From NCBI GenBank assembly GCA_913056455.1, contig CAJXMJ010000002.1:849665-913664 (forward strand): 64,000 bases of DNA. The letters run 5' to 3'. This stretch comes from an uncultured Fodinibius sp. Lineage in GTDB: Bacteria > Bacteroidota > Rhodothermia > Balneolales > Balneolaceae. Each line of letters opens with the position of its first letter. Position 1 is the stretch's first letter. This document shows, piece after piece, positions 53,217 through 59,025 of this stretch. Under the pieces are notes generated by a model. That model did no database searches and had not been told where the DNA came from. It saw nothing but the letters and a program-made list of their open reading frames with translations. Position numbers and translations under genes: made by a program.

Positions 53217-53283
53217 TTGACATATATCAAGAGTATTTCCTGTCATATGTCAATGGAAGATAAGGTTGCGAGCAGTATGTTAA
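53217..53283 (+). promoter_or_regulatory. Tandem Fnr-like boxes and -7-like element before yceI (copy A)
   Basis: TTGACATATATCAA (53217-53230) differs by one base from the Fnr consensus TTGAT-N4-ATCAA. A second, half-conserved site CTGTCATATGTCAA lies 23 bases further (53240-53253). A -7-like TATGTTAA begins at 53276, 59 bases after the first box begins. Copy B at 54968 has the same spacing throughout. If the -7 box begins at -12, the second site is centred near -41.5, the classical activating position for Fnr/Crp. The regulator gene lies 0.7 kb downstream. Confidence 0.75.
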
Positions 53284-53320
53284 GCATGAACAAACTGTTT
53301 AACATCAAAGTAATAATACA

Positions 53321-53860
53321 ATGACTACTGCAACGAAAACCTTATGGATGATTGATCCGACACATTCGGAAGTACAATTTAAAGTAAAGCACTTGGTAAT
53401 TTCTACTGTTACCGGAAGTTTTGGCTCTTACGATGGAAAAATTGAAGCTGATAGCGACGATTTTGAAAATGCCAAAGCAACGTTTACGGCTGATATCGAC
53501 AGCATTTCAACCAACAACGAGGATCGTGACCAGCATTTGAAGTCTGATGACTTTTTTAATGCGGAAGAGTATCCGCAACTGAAATTTGAATCCACAAACT
53601 TTGAGAAAGTTGGGGACGGAGAATACAAAGTCACCGGGGATTTAACTATCCGCGACGTCACCAAAAAAATTGAACTGGATGTCGTACACGGTGGTACTGT
53701 TACCGACCAATATGGTCAGACTAAAGCCGGATTTGAAGTTGAAGGAAAGATTAACCGAAAAGAATTTGACCTAACATGGAGTGCCGTAACTGAAGCCGGA
53801 AACGTAGTTGTGGGTGATGAAATTAAACTGCAGCTAAATGTACAGTTTATTAAAAATTGA
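53321..53860 (+). CDS. YceI-family protein, cytosolic form
   Basis: A lipocalin-like beta-barrel of the YceI family, whose members bind polyisoprenoid lipids or quinone-like molecules. It has 179 residues. The family pattern IDPTHSEVQFKVKHLVIS at the N-terminus and HLKSDDFFNAEEYPQLKFES and ITKKIELDV-like TIRDVTKKIELDV are present. No signal peptide precedes it, unlike the second YceI at 56.6 kb. It stands in its own unit, with Fnr-like boxes in front and a terminator behind. Confidence 0.9.
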   Translation: MTTATKTLWMIDPTHSEVQFKVKHLVISTVTGSFGSYDGKIEADSDDFENAKATFTADIDSISTNNEDRDQHLKSDDFFNAEEYPQLKFESTNFEKVGDGEYKVTGDLTIRDVTKKIELDVVHGGTVTDQYGQTKAGFEVEGKINRKEFDLTWSAVTEAGNVVVGDEIKLQLNVQFIKN

Positions 53861-53889
53861 TTTTGACAGCTAACGTCCCATATACCTAT

Positions 53890-53925
53890 AGCGGGTATTC
53901 TCTTCCGGAGGATATCCGCTTTTTT
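53890..53925 (+). terminator. Intrinsic terminator after the first yceI gene
   Basis: Stem AGCGGGTATTC / GGATATCCGCT (53890-53900 with 53910-53920, two G-T pairs) is followed by a run of T. It makes the first yceI a single-gene transcript. Confidence 0.8.
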
Positions 53926-54015
53926 ATTTGCTGATAATTCCCTGTACATTTTTAGATATCTTAGATTAGCAAATTTGCATAAAAAAACGGCGGCAACTGC
54001 TAAAGCCGACAACGA

Positions 54016-54591
54016 ATGTATAAGGTCCTAAAAGAAAGTTTTGAGGAGCATGTTTCGTTCTCCGACGAGGAATGGGAGATGTGCAAAAATAACTTCCGTC
54101 CCAAGCGAATGCTCAAACGCCAATTTCTGCTTCAAGAAGGCGATGTATGCCGTGAATTAGCTTTTGTAGAGAAGGGTGCGCTCTATTCTTATACGGTAGA
54201 TTCAAAAGGCAACCAGCATGTGATACGTTTCGCCTTTGACGGCTGGTGGATTGCAGATCTACAAAGTTTTTTTACGCATAATCCGTCTACATTTAATATC
54301 GAAGTGCTGGAGGACAGTGAGCTGTTAATGCTTGACCGCAAGAATCACGAAAAGCTTTTGGAAGAGATTCCGGGCTATGAACGCTACCACCGCATCATTG
54401 TGCAAAATGCCTATGTAGCTCTCAAACGACGGGTGGAAAACGGGTTAGGTCTTACGGCTGAAGAAAAATATGCCCGGCTAATAGAGCAAAATCCACAATT
54501 CATGAATCGGGTGCCATTGAACCTTGTGGCTTCTTACCTGGGGATGAGTCCCGAAACATTGAGCCGAGTCCGCAGTAATTTCAGCGGTTAA
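54016..54591 (+). CDS. Crp/Fnr-family transcriptional regulator
   Basis: A 191-residue Crp/Fnr regulator. The N-terminal cyclic-nucleotide-binding-like barrel (about 20-115) is followed by the dimerisation helix and a winged HTH. Its recognition helix reads MSPETLSRVRSNF, with E180, S183 and R184 in the E-x-x-S-R arrangement that in Fnr contacts TTGAT. Only two cysteines (C23, C45) are present, so there is no Fnr-type [4Fe-4S] cluster; it may sense another ligand. The cAMP-binding residues of Crp are not obvious. It lies between two promoters that carry Fnr-like boxes, and its stop overlaps the convergent GNAT gene by 4 bases. Confidence 0.92.
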   Translation: MYKVLKESFEEHVSFSDEEWEMCKNNFRPKRMLKRQFLLQEGDVCRELAFVEKGALYSYTVDSKGNQHVIRFAFDGWWIADLQSFFTHNPSTFNIEVLEDSELLMLDRKNHEKLLEEIPGYERYHRIIVQNAYVALKRRVENGLGLTAEEKYARLIEQNPQFMNRVPLNLVASYLGMSPETLSRVRSNFSG

Positions 54592-54869
54592 TTCAATACA
54601 TCTTGGAGCGACTCATTCCGTTCAATAACTGATTTGGCAAACGGACAAAGTGGAATTACTGTCAATTCATTTTTACGAGCATAATTCACCGCATGCTCGA
54701 CTAAGGCTTTACCTACTCCCTCACCGCGCAATGAATCCGAGACTTCGGTGTGATCGATAATAATTTTGGTGTTCCCTGCTTTTGAATAGGTGATTTCTGC
54801 TTTTACTTTTCCATTTTTTTCTACGAAAAAGGATCCCTTGTTGTCTTCATCTTTGTGCTGAATATCCAT
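54588..54869 (-). CDS. GNAT-like N-acetyltransferase, YjdJ type
   Basis: A small acetyltransferase-fold protein of 93 residues from the ATG at 54869 (further in-frame starts upstream are less like the family). The family blocks GKVKAEITYSKAGNTKIIID, HTEVSDSLRGEGVGKALVEH and VIPLCPFAKSVIERN are clear. The RGEGVG loop binds acetyl-CoA. Substrates of this compact subgroup are unknown. It is convergent with the Crp/Fnr gene, and its start faces the Fnr-like boxes at 54968, so it may share that control. Confidence 0.85.
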   Translation of the reverse strand: MDIQHKDEDNKGSFFVEKNGKVKAEITYSKAGNTKIIIDHTEVSDSLRGEGVGKALVEHAVNYARKNELTVIPLCPFAKSVIERNESLQDVLN

Positions 54870-54967
54870 ATTGATGTATAAAGTTGATAGCATAGTGCTA
54901 ATTTGCACCACAATACTACGTAAACCTTATCATAATTAACAATAGTAACTTTCCTGAAAAGCTTTTT

Positions 54968-55034
54968 TTGATATATATCAAGAGAATTTCTTAGCACATA
55001 TCAATGAGAAGGGTTTGGTGGCGAGTTATGTTTG
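54968..55034 (+). promoter_or_regulatory. Tandem Fnr-like boxes and -7 element before the NADP-reductase operon (copy B)
   Basis: TTGATATATATCAA (54968-54981) is a perfect TTGAT-N4-ATCAA palindrome. A second partial site TTAGCACATATCAA (54991-55004) and a full -7 match TATGTTTG (55027-55034) follow. The distances box 1 to box 2 (23) and box 1 to -7 (59) equal those of copy A. The two copies also share flanking bases (CAAGAG-ATTTC, CAATG, GCGAG). The promoter is divergent to the GNAT gene. Confidence 0.78.
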
Positions 55035-55070: not shown

Positions 55071-55679
55071 ATGGGTGTTACCAAGCAAACAATCGCAATC
55101 ATCGGGGCCGCTGGTAATTTGGGTTCTGCAATTGCAAAAAGTATAGCGGACGGTAACTACCGACTCCTGCTTTTTGACAGAACCAGCGAAAGGTTGGACT
55201 GGCTAATGGATGATATTCAAGCGAACTATCCGGATGCAGAGCTTAGATCTATGGATTGTGCCTATGACTGCAGCTGGGAAGCAGATATAATTATTTTTGC
55301 AGTCCCTCATAGAGCCGAAAAAGAAATTGCTGACAAGATACGGGAAGTAGCTACCCAAAAAATTGTGATTAGCACTGCCAATCCCGTAGATCAAGATTTG
55401 AGCAAATTGAATGGAGAACAGCCCCCGAGTGCAGCCGAAAAGTTACAGCACTCGTTACCGAATTCAAAAGTCGTTAAAGCGTTCAATACTACCTTTGCCG
55501 ATGACTTTGAAAACCTGATCATTGCCGGCAAGCGGTTGGACGCTTTTATTGCAGGAGATGATGATGAAGCTCTTCAAACCGTCTCGGAACTTGTGAAAAC
55601 AGCTGGATTCAACCCCATTATAGCCGGGGATCTGACGGTTAGCAGCACATTGGAACGAATGCAGCTGCTGTTTAGATAG
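55071..55679 (+). CDS. NADPH-dependent F420-reductase-type oxidoreductase
   Basis: A 202-residue Rossmann protein of the NADP oxidoreductase / F420-dependent family. The cofactor loop is IIGAAGNLGSAIAKSI at the N-terminus. IIIFAVPH and VVKAFNTTFAD are family blocks, and the latter is typical of the F420-type group. No F420 genes are visible, so the partner may be another flavin or quinone. It is the first gene of a run of six plus-strand genes up to 59.0 kb, placed directly behind the Fnr-like boxes. Confidence 0.85.
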   Translation: MGVTKQTIAIIGAAGNLGSAIAKSIADGNYRLLLFDRTSERLDWLMDDIQANYPDAELRSMDCAYDCSWEADIIIFAVPHRAEKEIADKIREVATQKIVISTANPVDQDLSKLNGEQPPSAAEKLQHSLPNSKVVKAFNTTFADDFENLIIAGKRLDAFIAGDDDEALQTVSELVKTAGFNPIIAGDLTVSSTLERMQLLFR

Positions 55680-55739: not shown

Positions 55740-56597
55740 ATGATACTTATCACAGGAGCAAACGGACACTTAGGATCGCAAACCATTGATTTTCTATTGA
55801 CGAATAATTCCGATGCGGATGTTGCCGGGCTTGTCCGGAGTGCAGAAAAGGGCGCTGAGCTGAAAGAAAAAGGCGTTAAAATTAGAATTGGAGACTACAC
55901 CGACTATCCATCGATCGAAAAAGCAGTTCAGGGCATTGATACCTTGTTATTGATTTCCTCGAGCACGTTAAAAGGACGAACTGATCAACACAATAATGTG
56001 ATTCAAGCTGCTAAAGAGGCCGGCATCAACCATATTTTTTACACCAGTATTGTTGAAGCTGATAAAGAGTTAAGCCTACTTTCGCGGGATCATGCTGCTA
56101 CGGAGAAGCTTATTAAAAATTCCGGCATCTCCTATACTATTTACCGAAATGCATTTTATATGGAGTTTCTACCGCTCTTCTTGGGCGATGCATTAGAAAC
56201 GGGTCATTGGGCCTTTCCATCCGATGGTAATGCGATCAATCTGGCACTACGCTTGGAAATGGCCGAAGTCTTGGCAAACGGACTTGCGAATGCCGAAGAA
56301 CACAAGAATAGCATCTATGAAATAACTTCAGCTCAGGCCTATTCGCTCGAAGAAATTGCTGATATGCTGAGTGAAGCCTCTGGAAAAGAGATCAGCTACA
56401 GCGATATCTCTGTTTCTGAGTTTGAGCAGGCGTTGACCGAAGCCGGGCTTCCCGAAGAGCAGATTGCCATAAGTGTGATGACCGCTACAACTTTCGTTAA
56501 TGGCGCGCTTGACTTTACCTATGATGATATGCAGAAGCTGCTCGGTCGCAAGCCTACCGGACTGGAAACCTATATATCAGAATTTGCAAATCAATAA
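55740..56597 (+). CDS. NmrA/QorB-type NAD(P)H-binding oxidoreductase
   Basis: An atypical SDR of 285 residues. The N-terminal ILITGANGHLGSQTIDFLL loop binds NAD(P), and GVKIRIGDYTDYPS, YRNAFYMEFLP and the C-terminal SDISVSEFEQALTEAG domain match the QorB/NmrA group. QorB reduces quinones; NmrA-type relatives sense the redox state. It follows the F420-type reductase by 60 bases and precedes the exported YceI by 46. A role in quinone reduction is inferred from family and context. Confidence 0.87.
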   Translation: MILITGANGHLGSQTIDFLLTNNSDADVAGLVRSAEKGAELKEKGVKIRIGDYTDYPSIEKAVQGIDTLLLISSSTLKGRTDQHNNVIQAAKEAGINHIFYTSIVEADKELSLLSRDHAATEKLIKNSGISYTIYRNAFYMEFLPLFLGDALETGHWAFPSDGNAINLALRLEMAEVLANGLANAEEHKNSIYEITSAQAYSLEEIADMLSEASGKEISYSDISVSEFEQALTEAGLPEEQIAISVMTATTFVNGALDFTYDDMQKLLGRKPTGLETYISEFANQ

Positions 56598-56643
56598 TTA
56601 TTCACTACTACTTAATCTAACCAACCATAAATCAATAAAACCA

Positions 56644-57222
56644 ATGAAAAAACTAATCTTTATTCTATCACTCTTCATTCTTCCCGCCAGCGTCTTTGCA
56701 CAAGATACCTGGGTAGAAGATCCGGCGCATTCCAAGCTCGGATTTACCGTTACTCACTTGGGCATCGCTGACGTGCCCGGATATTTCGGAGACTATGATG
56801 TCACCATTGAAGCATCAGAAGAGGATTTCAGCGACGCAAAAGTCGAGCTGACCGTTCAGACGGCTTCTATTGATACGCGCGTTGAAAAGCGAAATAATCA
56901 TCTTAAAAGCCCCGACTTCTTTAACGTAGAAAAGTATCCGACGATGACTTTCGAAAGTACGGGTATCAAGGAAATGGGCGATGGCAAGTATGAACTTACA
57001 GGTGACCTGACGCTTCATGGTATTACGAAGCCAGTGACCGTTACCATGTTGTATCGTGGAAATATCCAAAACGAAATGACTCAGGGTAACCTTAAGGCTG
57101 GTATTCAAATTACCGGTATGATTGACCGCTCTAAGTTTGATCTCGGTGGTAATTTCCCACCGCCCATGATCAGCAATGATGTACGTATCAAGGCTGATGG
57201 TGAGTTTATACTACAAAAGTAA
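56644..57222 (+). CDS. YceI-family protein, exported form
   Basis: The second YceI protein of the island, 192 residues. The start is the ATG at 56644, which opens a clear signal peptide (MKKLIFILSLFILPASVFAQ). The mature part has WVEDPAHSKLGFTVTHLGI, HLKSPDFFNVEKYPTMTFES and LTLHGITKPVTVTM. A periplasmic YceI could bind a polyprenyl lipid or quinone. The paired cytosolic YceI at 53.3 kb shares the NHLKSPDFFN-type core, so the two are paralogues split between compartments. Confidence 0.92.
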   Translation: MKKLIFILSLFILPASVFAQDTWVEDPAHSKLGFTVTHLGIADVPGYFGDYDVTIEASEEDFSDAKVELTVQTASIDTRVEKRNNHLKSPDFFNVEKYPTMTFESTGIKEMGDGKYELTGDLTLHGITKPVTVTMLYRGNIQNEMTQGNLKAGIQITGMIDRSKFDLGGNFPPPMISNDVRIKADGEFILQK

Positions 57223-57314: not shown

Positions 57315-57806
57315 ATGGAAACCAATTATACGACGCCGCCGGAAACCCAGATCGGACACGTGCATTTAAAAGTGTCTGATCTGGATCAGGCCCTTGAGTT
57401 TTACCGTGACCTGCTCGGTTTTGAGCTAACCACCATGTATGGTGAGAATGCGGCCTTTTTGTCAGCCGGCGGCTATCACCATCACATTGGGCTCAATACC
57501 TGGCATAGCAAAGGAGGTCCGCCTGCGCCCCGCAATAGCGCCGGGCTCTACCACACCGCCTTTCTATATCCCACGCGAAAAGACTTGGCTAAAATCCTTC
57601 AACGACTTATTGATGAGGGATATCCCATTGATGGAGCCAGCGATCATGGTGTCTCAGAGGCGATCTACCTAAAAGATCCTGACGGCAATGGTGTGGAGCT
57701 GTACCGCGATCGTCCTCGTGAGGAATGGGAATACACCGAGGACGGCTCGGTTAAGATGGTTACTCAACCGCTTGATGTGCAGGATTTACTGAAAGAGTTG
57801 AATTAA
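57315..57806 (+). CDS. VOC-family dioxygenase/glyoxalase-like protein (CatE-like)
   Basis: A single-domain vicinal oxygen chelate protein of 163 residues. Expected metal ligands are H15 (IGHVHLKVSD), a histidine in LYHTAFLYP and the glutamate in NGVELYRDRP. The LEFYRDLLGFEL segment and SDHGVSEAIYLKDPDG are typical of extradiol catechol dioxygenases such as B. subtilis CatE. That enzyme is longer (two domains), so an open-ring dioxygenase or another VOC function remains possible. A DoxX gene follows at once, as catD accompanies catE in Bacillus. Confidence 0.85.
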   Translation: METNYTTPPETQIGHVHLKVSDLDQALEFYRDLLGFELTTMYGENAAFLSAGGYHHHIGLNTWHSKGGPPAPRNSAGLYHTAFLYPTRKDLAKILQRLIDEGYPIDGASDHGVSEAIYLKDPDGNGVELYRDRPREEWEYTEDGSVKMVTQPLDVQDLLKELN

Positions 57807-57875: not shown

Positions 57876-58271
57876 TTGAAAATAACATACTGGATTACTA
57901 CTGGGATTTTCAGTGCTATGATGCTATTTAGTGCCACGATGTACTTCATAAGTCCCGACATGGCCCAGACTTTTGAGCATTTAGGATTCCCAGATTACTT
58001 CCGAATAGAACTGGGCATAGCCAAAATAATAGGGGTGCTATTATTGCTTGCTCCTTTTACAGGACGTCTTAAAGAATGGGTTTATGCCGGCTTTACCATC
58101 AATATGATTTCAGGCAGTATTGCTCACGAAGCAGCGGGCGATCCCATATTTGCTGTTCTTACTCCCCTTGTATTGTTGGGAGTTTTAGCGGTCTCCTACG
58201 TAACGCTCCAAAAGTTGGACGAAGAGATCGAGCCTGCTTTTGTAACGCAGCTTATTGGTTCAACTTCGTAG
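57876..58271 (+). CDS. DoxX-family membrane protein (CatD-like)
   Basis: A 131-residue membrane protein with four predicted helices (ITTGIFSAMMLFSATMYF near the N-terminus, and IIGVLLLLAPF, FTINMISGSIAHEAAG, LVLLGVLAVSYV). The pattern matches the DoxX/DUF family; the B. subtilis relative CatD takes part in quinone/catechol resistance. The start is a TTG at 57876, since no ATG is in frame before the first helix. It lies 69 bases behind the VOC gene and 13 bases before the pirin gene. Confidence 0.8.
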   Translation: MKITYWITTGIFSAMMLFSATMYFISPDMAQTFEHLGFPDYFRIELGIAKIIGVLLLLAPFTGRLKEWVYAGFTINMISGSIAHEAAGDPIFAVLTPLVLLGVLAVSYVTLQKLDEEIEPAFVTQLIGSTS

Positions 58272-58284
58272 ACAAAAAATACTA

Positions 58285-59025
58285 ATGATACACATCGTCA
58301 GGTCAAACAAACGACACAAGGTAAGCCGGGAACCTTGTACTTCTCGGTTTCTTCTCTTGGGCCGAACCATATCGGACGCCAGTGATCATGGTATTGCTCA
58401 AATCGGGCGGTTGGAACACGCCACACTCGAAGGCGGGGCACTGGTACCGATGCACCTGCATCAGAACGAGGAGATTCTCTCCTACCTGCGCAAAGGCACC
58501 ATGCATCACAAGGATAGTGACGGCAATGACATACCCATTCACAATAAAAATCTGATGCTGATGAATGCAGGGAGTGGTATGCGGCATGAAGAGGATGTCC
58601 GCGAGGGTGATGAAACCATGGAGATGCTGCAGATTTTTATCCGTCCCAAAGTGGACGGGCTAAAGCCGAAGGTACAATTCTATGAGTTGGATAAAATAGA
58701 AAGCCTGAATCAATGGCGACTGCTTGCCGGACACGAGCGATCCGAAGCCCCGATGCTATTTAGAAGCGAGGTGCTGTTTTATGATTTATATCTGGAAAAT
58801 AAAAACTCCATACAGATCCCCAACCTGCATGGGCTTACCGGCTTTATGTACCTGTTCAGCGGAAGTGTGACTATTGAGGGTCACACCGAAGTGGCTGGGG
58901 AAGGTGATCAAGTAGTTATCAAAGATGAACAGTTGACTCTCAAAGCCAATGAGGATTCGGATCTGGTCTTTTTTGTGTTGGATGAATCTGCATCCTATAG
59001 CCGGAATGGGCTTTATGCAAAGTGA
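58285..59025 (+). CDS. Pirin-family protein
   Basis: An iron-binding bicupin of 246 residues, from the ATG at 58285 (the frame reaches further back into the DoxX gene). The metal-site blocks are MHLHQNEEILSYLRKG and SGMRHEEDVREGDE. The second cupin is around FLFSGSVTIEGH-like MYLFSGSVTIEG. Pirins such as YhhW have quercetin dioxygenase activity or act as redox-dependent regulators. It is the last gene of the island. No terminator was seen in the 174 bases behind it, which carry only a weak inverted repeat near 59043. Confidence 0.9.
   Translation: MIHIVRSNKRHKVSREPCTSRFLLLGRTISDASDHGIAQIGRLEHATLEGGALVPMHLHQNEEILSYLRKGTMHHKDSDGNDIPIHNKNLMLMNAGSGMRHEEDVREGDETMEMLQIFIRPKVDGLKPKVQFYELDKIESLNQWRLLAGHERSEAPMLFRSEVLFYDLYLENKNSIQIPNLHGLTGFMYLFSGSVTIEGHTEVAGEGDQVVIKDEQLTLKANEDSDLVFFVLDESASYSRNGLYAK

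Follow-up and report, generated by a model that had tools for sequence, protein, structure and literature searches.

Tandem Fnr-like boxes and a Crp/Fnr-family regulator predicted to activate yceI and an oxidoreductase operon in Fodinibius and other Bacteroidota

Results

Organization of the locus and of the two promoters

In the window analysed here, a stretch of 64,000 nucleotides from an uncultured Fodinibius sp., a Crp/Fnr-family regulator is encoded between two promoter copies, A and B, and the best overall explanation, which we consider very probable, is that it binds both and activates yceI and the operon behind promoter B. This reading is supported by genome comparison, namely by conserved boxes, fixed promoter geometry, coupling of boxes and regulator, and covariation of the recognition helix with the box. 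The features of the locus are listed in Table 1.

Table 1. Predicted regulatory sites and genes at the locus (positions in the window).
Feature	Sequence	Position	Strand	Remarks
Distal regulator site A1 (predicted)	TTGACATATATCAA	53217..53230	+	Predicted centre -64.5
Proximal regulator site A2 (predicted)	CTGTCATATGTCAA	53240..53253	+	Predicted centre -41.5; conserved TG directly after
-7 element, promoter A	TATGTTAA	53276..53283	+	Consensus TAnnTTTG; predicted transcription start about 53288
yceI, first copy		53321..53860	+	PF04264; predicted target of promoter A; box precedes the ortholog in regulator-bearing genomes
Terminator-like hairpin followed by T run		53890..53920	+	Between yceI and regulator gene; z -3.27
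Crp/Fnr-family regulator, 191 aa		54016..54591	+	PF00027, fold, ortholog alignment; helix PETLSR; without the Fnr cysteine cluster
GNAT gene		54588..54911	-	Divergent from box B; not indicated as target
Distal regulator site B1 (predicted)	TTGATATATATCAA	54968..54981	+	Predicted centre -64.5
Proximal regulator site B2 (predicted)	TTAGCACATATCAA	54991..55004	+	Predicted centre -41.5; conserved TG directly after
-7 element, promoter B	TATGTTTG	55027..55034	+	Predicted transcription start about 55039
NpdG/F420-reductase-like NAD(P)-binding oxidoreductase		55071..55679	+	Operon B, gene 1; relatives behind box across Bacteroidota
NmrA-like NAD(P)-binding reductase		55740..56597	+	Operon B
yceI, second copy		56644..57222	+	Start MKKLIF inferred inside longer listed ORF 56500-57222
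VOC/glyoxalase-fold protein, resembles extradiol dioxygenases		57315..57806	+	Operon B
DoxX_2 membrane protein		57876..58271	+	Operon B
Pirin-like cupin		58255..59025	+	Listed ORF; the actual start may lie inside it

Direct reading of the sequence bore out the preliminary description in that the two sites of each copy are 23 bp apart from start to start, the -7 element begins 59 bases after the start of the first site in both copies, and B1 is a perfect FNR box, TTGAT-n4-ATCAA. The tandem boxes had also been called identical; this holds for the spacing and the -7 offset but overstates the rest, since A1 reads TTGAC-n4-ATCAA and the left half-site is degenerate in both A2 and B2. The CRP box TGTGA-N6-TCACA was not found at these promoters, where the box reads TTGAT-N4-ATCAA. 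The 9-nt linker between the sites is gagtatttc in A (53231-53239) and gagaatttc in B (54982-54990). Its 3' end, TTTC, is kept throughout the family and in many outgroups, and neither dimer site should require the linker.

The regulator gene lies downstream of yceI on the same strand, and because a strong hairpin with a T run stands between the two genes, it probably has its own promoter, separate from that of yceI. Behind promoter B, genes for NpdG-like, NmrA-like, second YceI, VOC, DoxX and pirin proteins form the operon. The regulon first proposed comprised the first yceI, the operon at 55.0-59.0 kb and perhaps the GNAT gene; the former two stand as predicted targets, while the GNAT gene was rejected, the reverse side of box B showing, across 7 genomes, no -7 element whose distance stays constant.

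Geometry of the promoters

Promoter geometry was determined from 35 family copies chosen on positions 0-38 alone, without consideration of the -7 element. TA was present at position 59 in 34 of these copies and at every other offset from 45 to 69 in at most 14, and positions 40-58 were barely conserved. Mapping in Flavobacterium psychrophilum put the TAnnTTTG box at -12 to -5 (PMC9723704). With the -7 box placed accordingly, the centres of site 2 and site 1 fall at -41.5 and -64.5, respectively, from the predicted start. The class II activator position of FNR and CRP is -41.5, and the proximal sites of promoters A and B, centred near it, are predicted to be class II sites. The conserved TG right after site 2 is 20 bp before the -7 element and appears to sit where a poor -33 element (AATG, not TTTG) would be.

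Features of the regulator protein

The N-terminal part of the regulator is a cNMP-binding-like beta-barrel (PF00027 at 50.6 bits, cut-off 27.5). The structural model (pLDDT 93.7) has a Crp/Fnr fold with a long helix at 119-145 and further C-terminal helices; CRP and FNR structures match it over 170-200 columns, and FNR is among the top structural matches. With the beta-barrel and, in the model, the dimerisation helix and C-terminal helix-turn-helix, the protein is assigned to the Crp/Fnr superfamily. NCBIfam has no model for it, and the region of the cAMP phosphate-binding cassette reads WWIADLQSFFTHNPST, which by eye differs from the CRP cassette.

The preliminary description had attributed to this protein the E-x-x-S-R recognition motif without the Fnr cysteine cluster, and both points were confirmed. 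The helix PETLSR and the box TTGATATATATCAA form an FNR-like combination of E-x-x-S-R helix and TTGAT box. The four [4Fe-4S]-binding Fnr cysteines are absent; only Cys23 and Cys45 occur, and in the alignment of 48 orthologs Cys45 alone is nearly invariant. Six PF00027 proteins, including the regulator, are encoded in the same genome. Apart from the regulator, a clear C-terminal recognition helix was found in two of them (L156 and L158), and one paralog (L158) shares E-x-x-S-R.

Coupling of box and regulator in the family

A search of the 3.28-Mb genome with the 23-mer pattern, allowing at most three mismatches, matched A and B only, and the backward control gave no match. A looser 39-mer matched A and B without mismatch, nothing at one mismatch and, from two mismatches, only background-like sequences; no further target with the composite pattern rose above background in this genome.

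Among 92 genomes of the family, the composite motif (at most three mismatches) was found in 19, with no match of the backward control in any genome listed, and an ortholog of the regulator (at least 62% identity) in 21. All 19 motif-bearing genomes encode the ortholog, and the motif is absent from all 71 genomes of the family that do not. The remaining two ortholog-bearing genomes (G009 and G044) have diverged but clear boxes according to the weight matrix, and the weight-matrix scores of the boxes are far above those of shuffled sequences. Gene order is conserved as well, the boxes preceding yceI and the oxidoreductase operon by about 104 and 103 bp, respectively. Where yceI is at least 82% identical and adjoins the regulator gene, 14 of 15 loci have the box, the exception being G063 (L195); of the YceI paralogs elsewhere (64-76% identical), none of the 15 loci examined has it. 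Since boxes and regulator are mostly neighbours, joint inheritance could explain part of their co-occurrence, which is why geometry and covariation are given more weight.

A composite site with one mismatch (L081:1501) scored above shuffles in a genome whose regulator is on another contig and may be an unlinked target. L082 was dismissed as a box, its score of 7.2 being that of a chance match.

Distribution across Bacteroidota

Elsewhere in the phylum, in Flavobacterium, Cnuella and further families, orthologs sharing 41-54% identity have the same layout next to them, with the -7 element at 59 or 60, mostly before an NpdG-like gene or yceI. In G095 the box is about 6 kb away from the regulator gene yet still before the NpdG-like gene. 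The scan of related genomes proposed at the outset thus found boxes, spacing and -7 element conserved with the regulator through family and phylum. In G182 (L104:657), of the same order, the distal site before yceI has been lost and the proximal site remains together with a -7-like element; that the proximal site alone is retained fits its being the essential one. No full box was found near the regulator gene at the Chryseobacterium locus L048 or in G136 (L153). At L110:1473 (minus strand) and also at L147, three tandem sites in 23-bp register stand before one promoter.

Judged from sequence, we regard this as a real regulon that extends across the phylum; its regulator belongs to a known superfamily, and its promoter geometry is unusually strict. 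No description of a Bacteroidetes regulon combining YceI and a Crp/Fnr regulator was found in the open-licence literature, which is weak evidence of absence.

Covariation of recognition helix and box

Orthologs with the helix PETLSR are accompanied by TTGA-type boxes; the diverged copies L105/L137, L110/L147 and similar ones differ but still start with TTG. The orthologs with PQSLSR (11 aligned) form one clade with support of 100/93, and 9 of the 11 have TTAAC/TTACC/TTATC-type boxes at the standard spacing. Of the other PQSLSR loci, L154 has TTA-type boxes at spacing 22, and L150 (= L115) was not called by the scan, yet its proximal site TTACCCTATGTGAA is present. The scan scored only complementarity at half-site positions 3-5, never base identity there. 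In L152, the nearest sister row of the Q clade, the helix has E and the genome has a TTGA box.

The helix change from Glu to Gln (with Thr to Ser) thus accompanies the change from TTGAT to TTAAC/TTACC, with spacing and -7 distance unchanged. In E. coli FNR, the residues Glu209, Ser212 and Arg213 read the box (PMC4505428); aligned on E-x-x-S-R, the position that changes from E to Q would correspond to FNR Glu209. The helix changed once in evolution, and the covariation therefore amounts to one correlated switch inherited by many descendants; even so, it is the strongest link between the regulator and these boxes, and a direct one.

Predicted targets

Further genes behind boxes in the family encode Dps and aldehyde dehydrogenase, and by eye a GMC oxidoreductase and short-chain dehydrogenases were named from sequence. 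The box at the Dps gene (L091:1571, minus strand) is diverged and has the same layout; it suggests a link to oxidative stress. A second copy of the regulator occurs in F. sediminis, where boxes stand in front of yceI and in front of an ortholog of MhqO (L093:4247 and L093:5788). This ortholog matches B. subtilis MhqO (3oaj) at E 2.8e-69 and is followed by an MhqD-like esterase gene. The VOC protein of the window is related to catechol dioxygenases only distantly.

In Firmicutes, MhqO/CatE dioxygenases, MhqD and quinone reductases are targets of quinone regulators (PMC6798810). As the predicted targets suggest a role in detoxifying quinones, catechols or related electrophiles, the regulator probably senses such compounds or a redox change caused by them; for quinone/electrophile detoxification as the main signal of the regulon, gene content gives somewhat less than an even chance.

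Comparison with known systems

The regulator shares with E. coli FNR the Crp/Fnr fold, the E-x-x-S-R helix, the TTGAT-n4-ATCAA box and, counted from the predicted start, the class II site at -41.5. It differs in lacking the Fe-S cysteine ligands, in having about 20% identity to the solved FNR of A. fischeri, in its tandem sites at rigid 23-bp spacing and in its predicted stress/detoxification targets. The closest solved sequence (E 4.9e-34), also the top structural match, is the uncharacterised cyclic-nucleotide-binding-like protein 3dn7 of Cytophaga hutchinsonii, whose record title gives no function; its helix reads PEYLSEIR against PETLSRVR in the regulator. HcpR of Porphyromonas gingivalis (9day), of the same superfamily and phylum and with a reported role in nitrosative stress, is a weak structural match (TMq 0.58, 16% identity).

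Target types are shared with MhqR and YodB/QsrR of Firmicutes, namely ring-cleavage dioxygenases (MhqO/CatE), the MhqD esterase and NAD(P)H reductases, and the MhqR-type pair of MhqO/CatE dioxygenase and MhqD esterase is present in F. sediminis (L093). YceI and pirin are additional here. MhqR and YodB/QsrR are MarR/DUF24 repressors, whereas the protein described here is a Crp/Fnr protein with activator geometry.

Discussion

The proposed mechanism is that the regulator binds each promoter copy as a pair of adjacent dimers. The proximal one, at about -41.5, would take the place of a good -33 element and contact RNA polymerase (class II activation), and the distal one, 23 bp further upstream at -64.5, would assist, presumably by cooperation between the dimers. 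In this way yceI would be activated from promoter A and the oxidoreductase-NmrA-YceI-VOC-DoxX-pirin operon from promoter B. Cys45, as the only widely conserved cysteine, is a candidate sensor residue for a signal that may be electrophilic. The shared, position-dependent activator of the preliminary description gains support from the conserved boxes, the fixed spacing and -7 offset, and the covariation of helix and box.

On site position alone, we infer activation rather than repression. A fixed site at -41.5 with a rigid second site upstream is typical of activation, while repressor sites usually shift around the promoter, and it is because the -41.5 position is fixed that activation is preferred. 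A repressor whose proximal dimer covers the -33 position and, until released by a ligand, keeps polymerase out would fit the overlap of the proximal site with that position, but the rigid second site 23 bp upstream and the poor -33 element (AATG against TTTG) speak against it, the latter because such a promoter should be weak without help. Repression of both promoters is therefore unlikely, even though repression is the mode of action of known quinone regulators such as MhqR (PMC6798810). The perfect FNR box at B1 (consensus in PMC4505428) would also suit an oxygen- or nitric-oxide-responsive regulon of the Fnr/Dnr type in place of detoxification; with a single nearly invariant cysteine instead of a cluster, and with respiratory, denitrification and haem genes all missing from the identified targets, we consider this quite improbable.

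ETLSR-like helices are common to many Bacteroidota Crp/Fnr proteins, and one other Crp/Fnr protein of this genome has the helix AREVISR, so the boxes might be read by a paralog, such as the E-x-x-S-R protein near G000:C2:967213, or by another factor, with the regulator as a passenger. The lack of the motif in every family genome without the regulator ortholog argues against this, as does the box sequence, which tracks the helix of the ortholog of 54016 (E versus Q), and the chance that it applies is slight. That short, AT-rich inverted repeats are equally spaced by accident or as a simple repeat is refuted by the comparative data, given the empty backward-pattern controls, the weight-matrix scores and the near-constant TA at +59, and its probability is negligible. 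Activation by the Crp/Fnr regulator encoded between the promoters is the reading retained.

Binding sites are known for few regulators of Bacteroidota, and here a predicted site is available with a precise geometry, a target list, a candidate signal open to testing and a phylum-wide spread. The joint change of helix and box within a fixed promoter layout offers a natural experiment in Crp/Fnr recognition. More tentatively, and with considerable doubt, a Bacteroidota regulon spanning the phylum may be envisaged in which quinones or other electrophiles are the signal for a Crp/Fnr activator, with Cys45 perhaps as the sensing residue. If so, it would be the counterpart of MhqR/YodB in Firmicutes, built from a different protein family and with the opposite logic of activation, and the helix change from E to Q would represent a natural switch of box specificity within an otherwise unchanged promoter.
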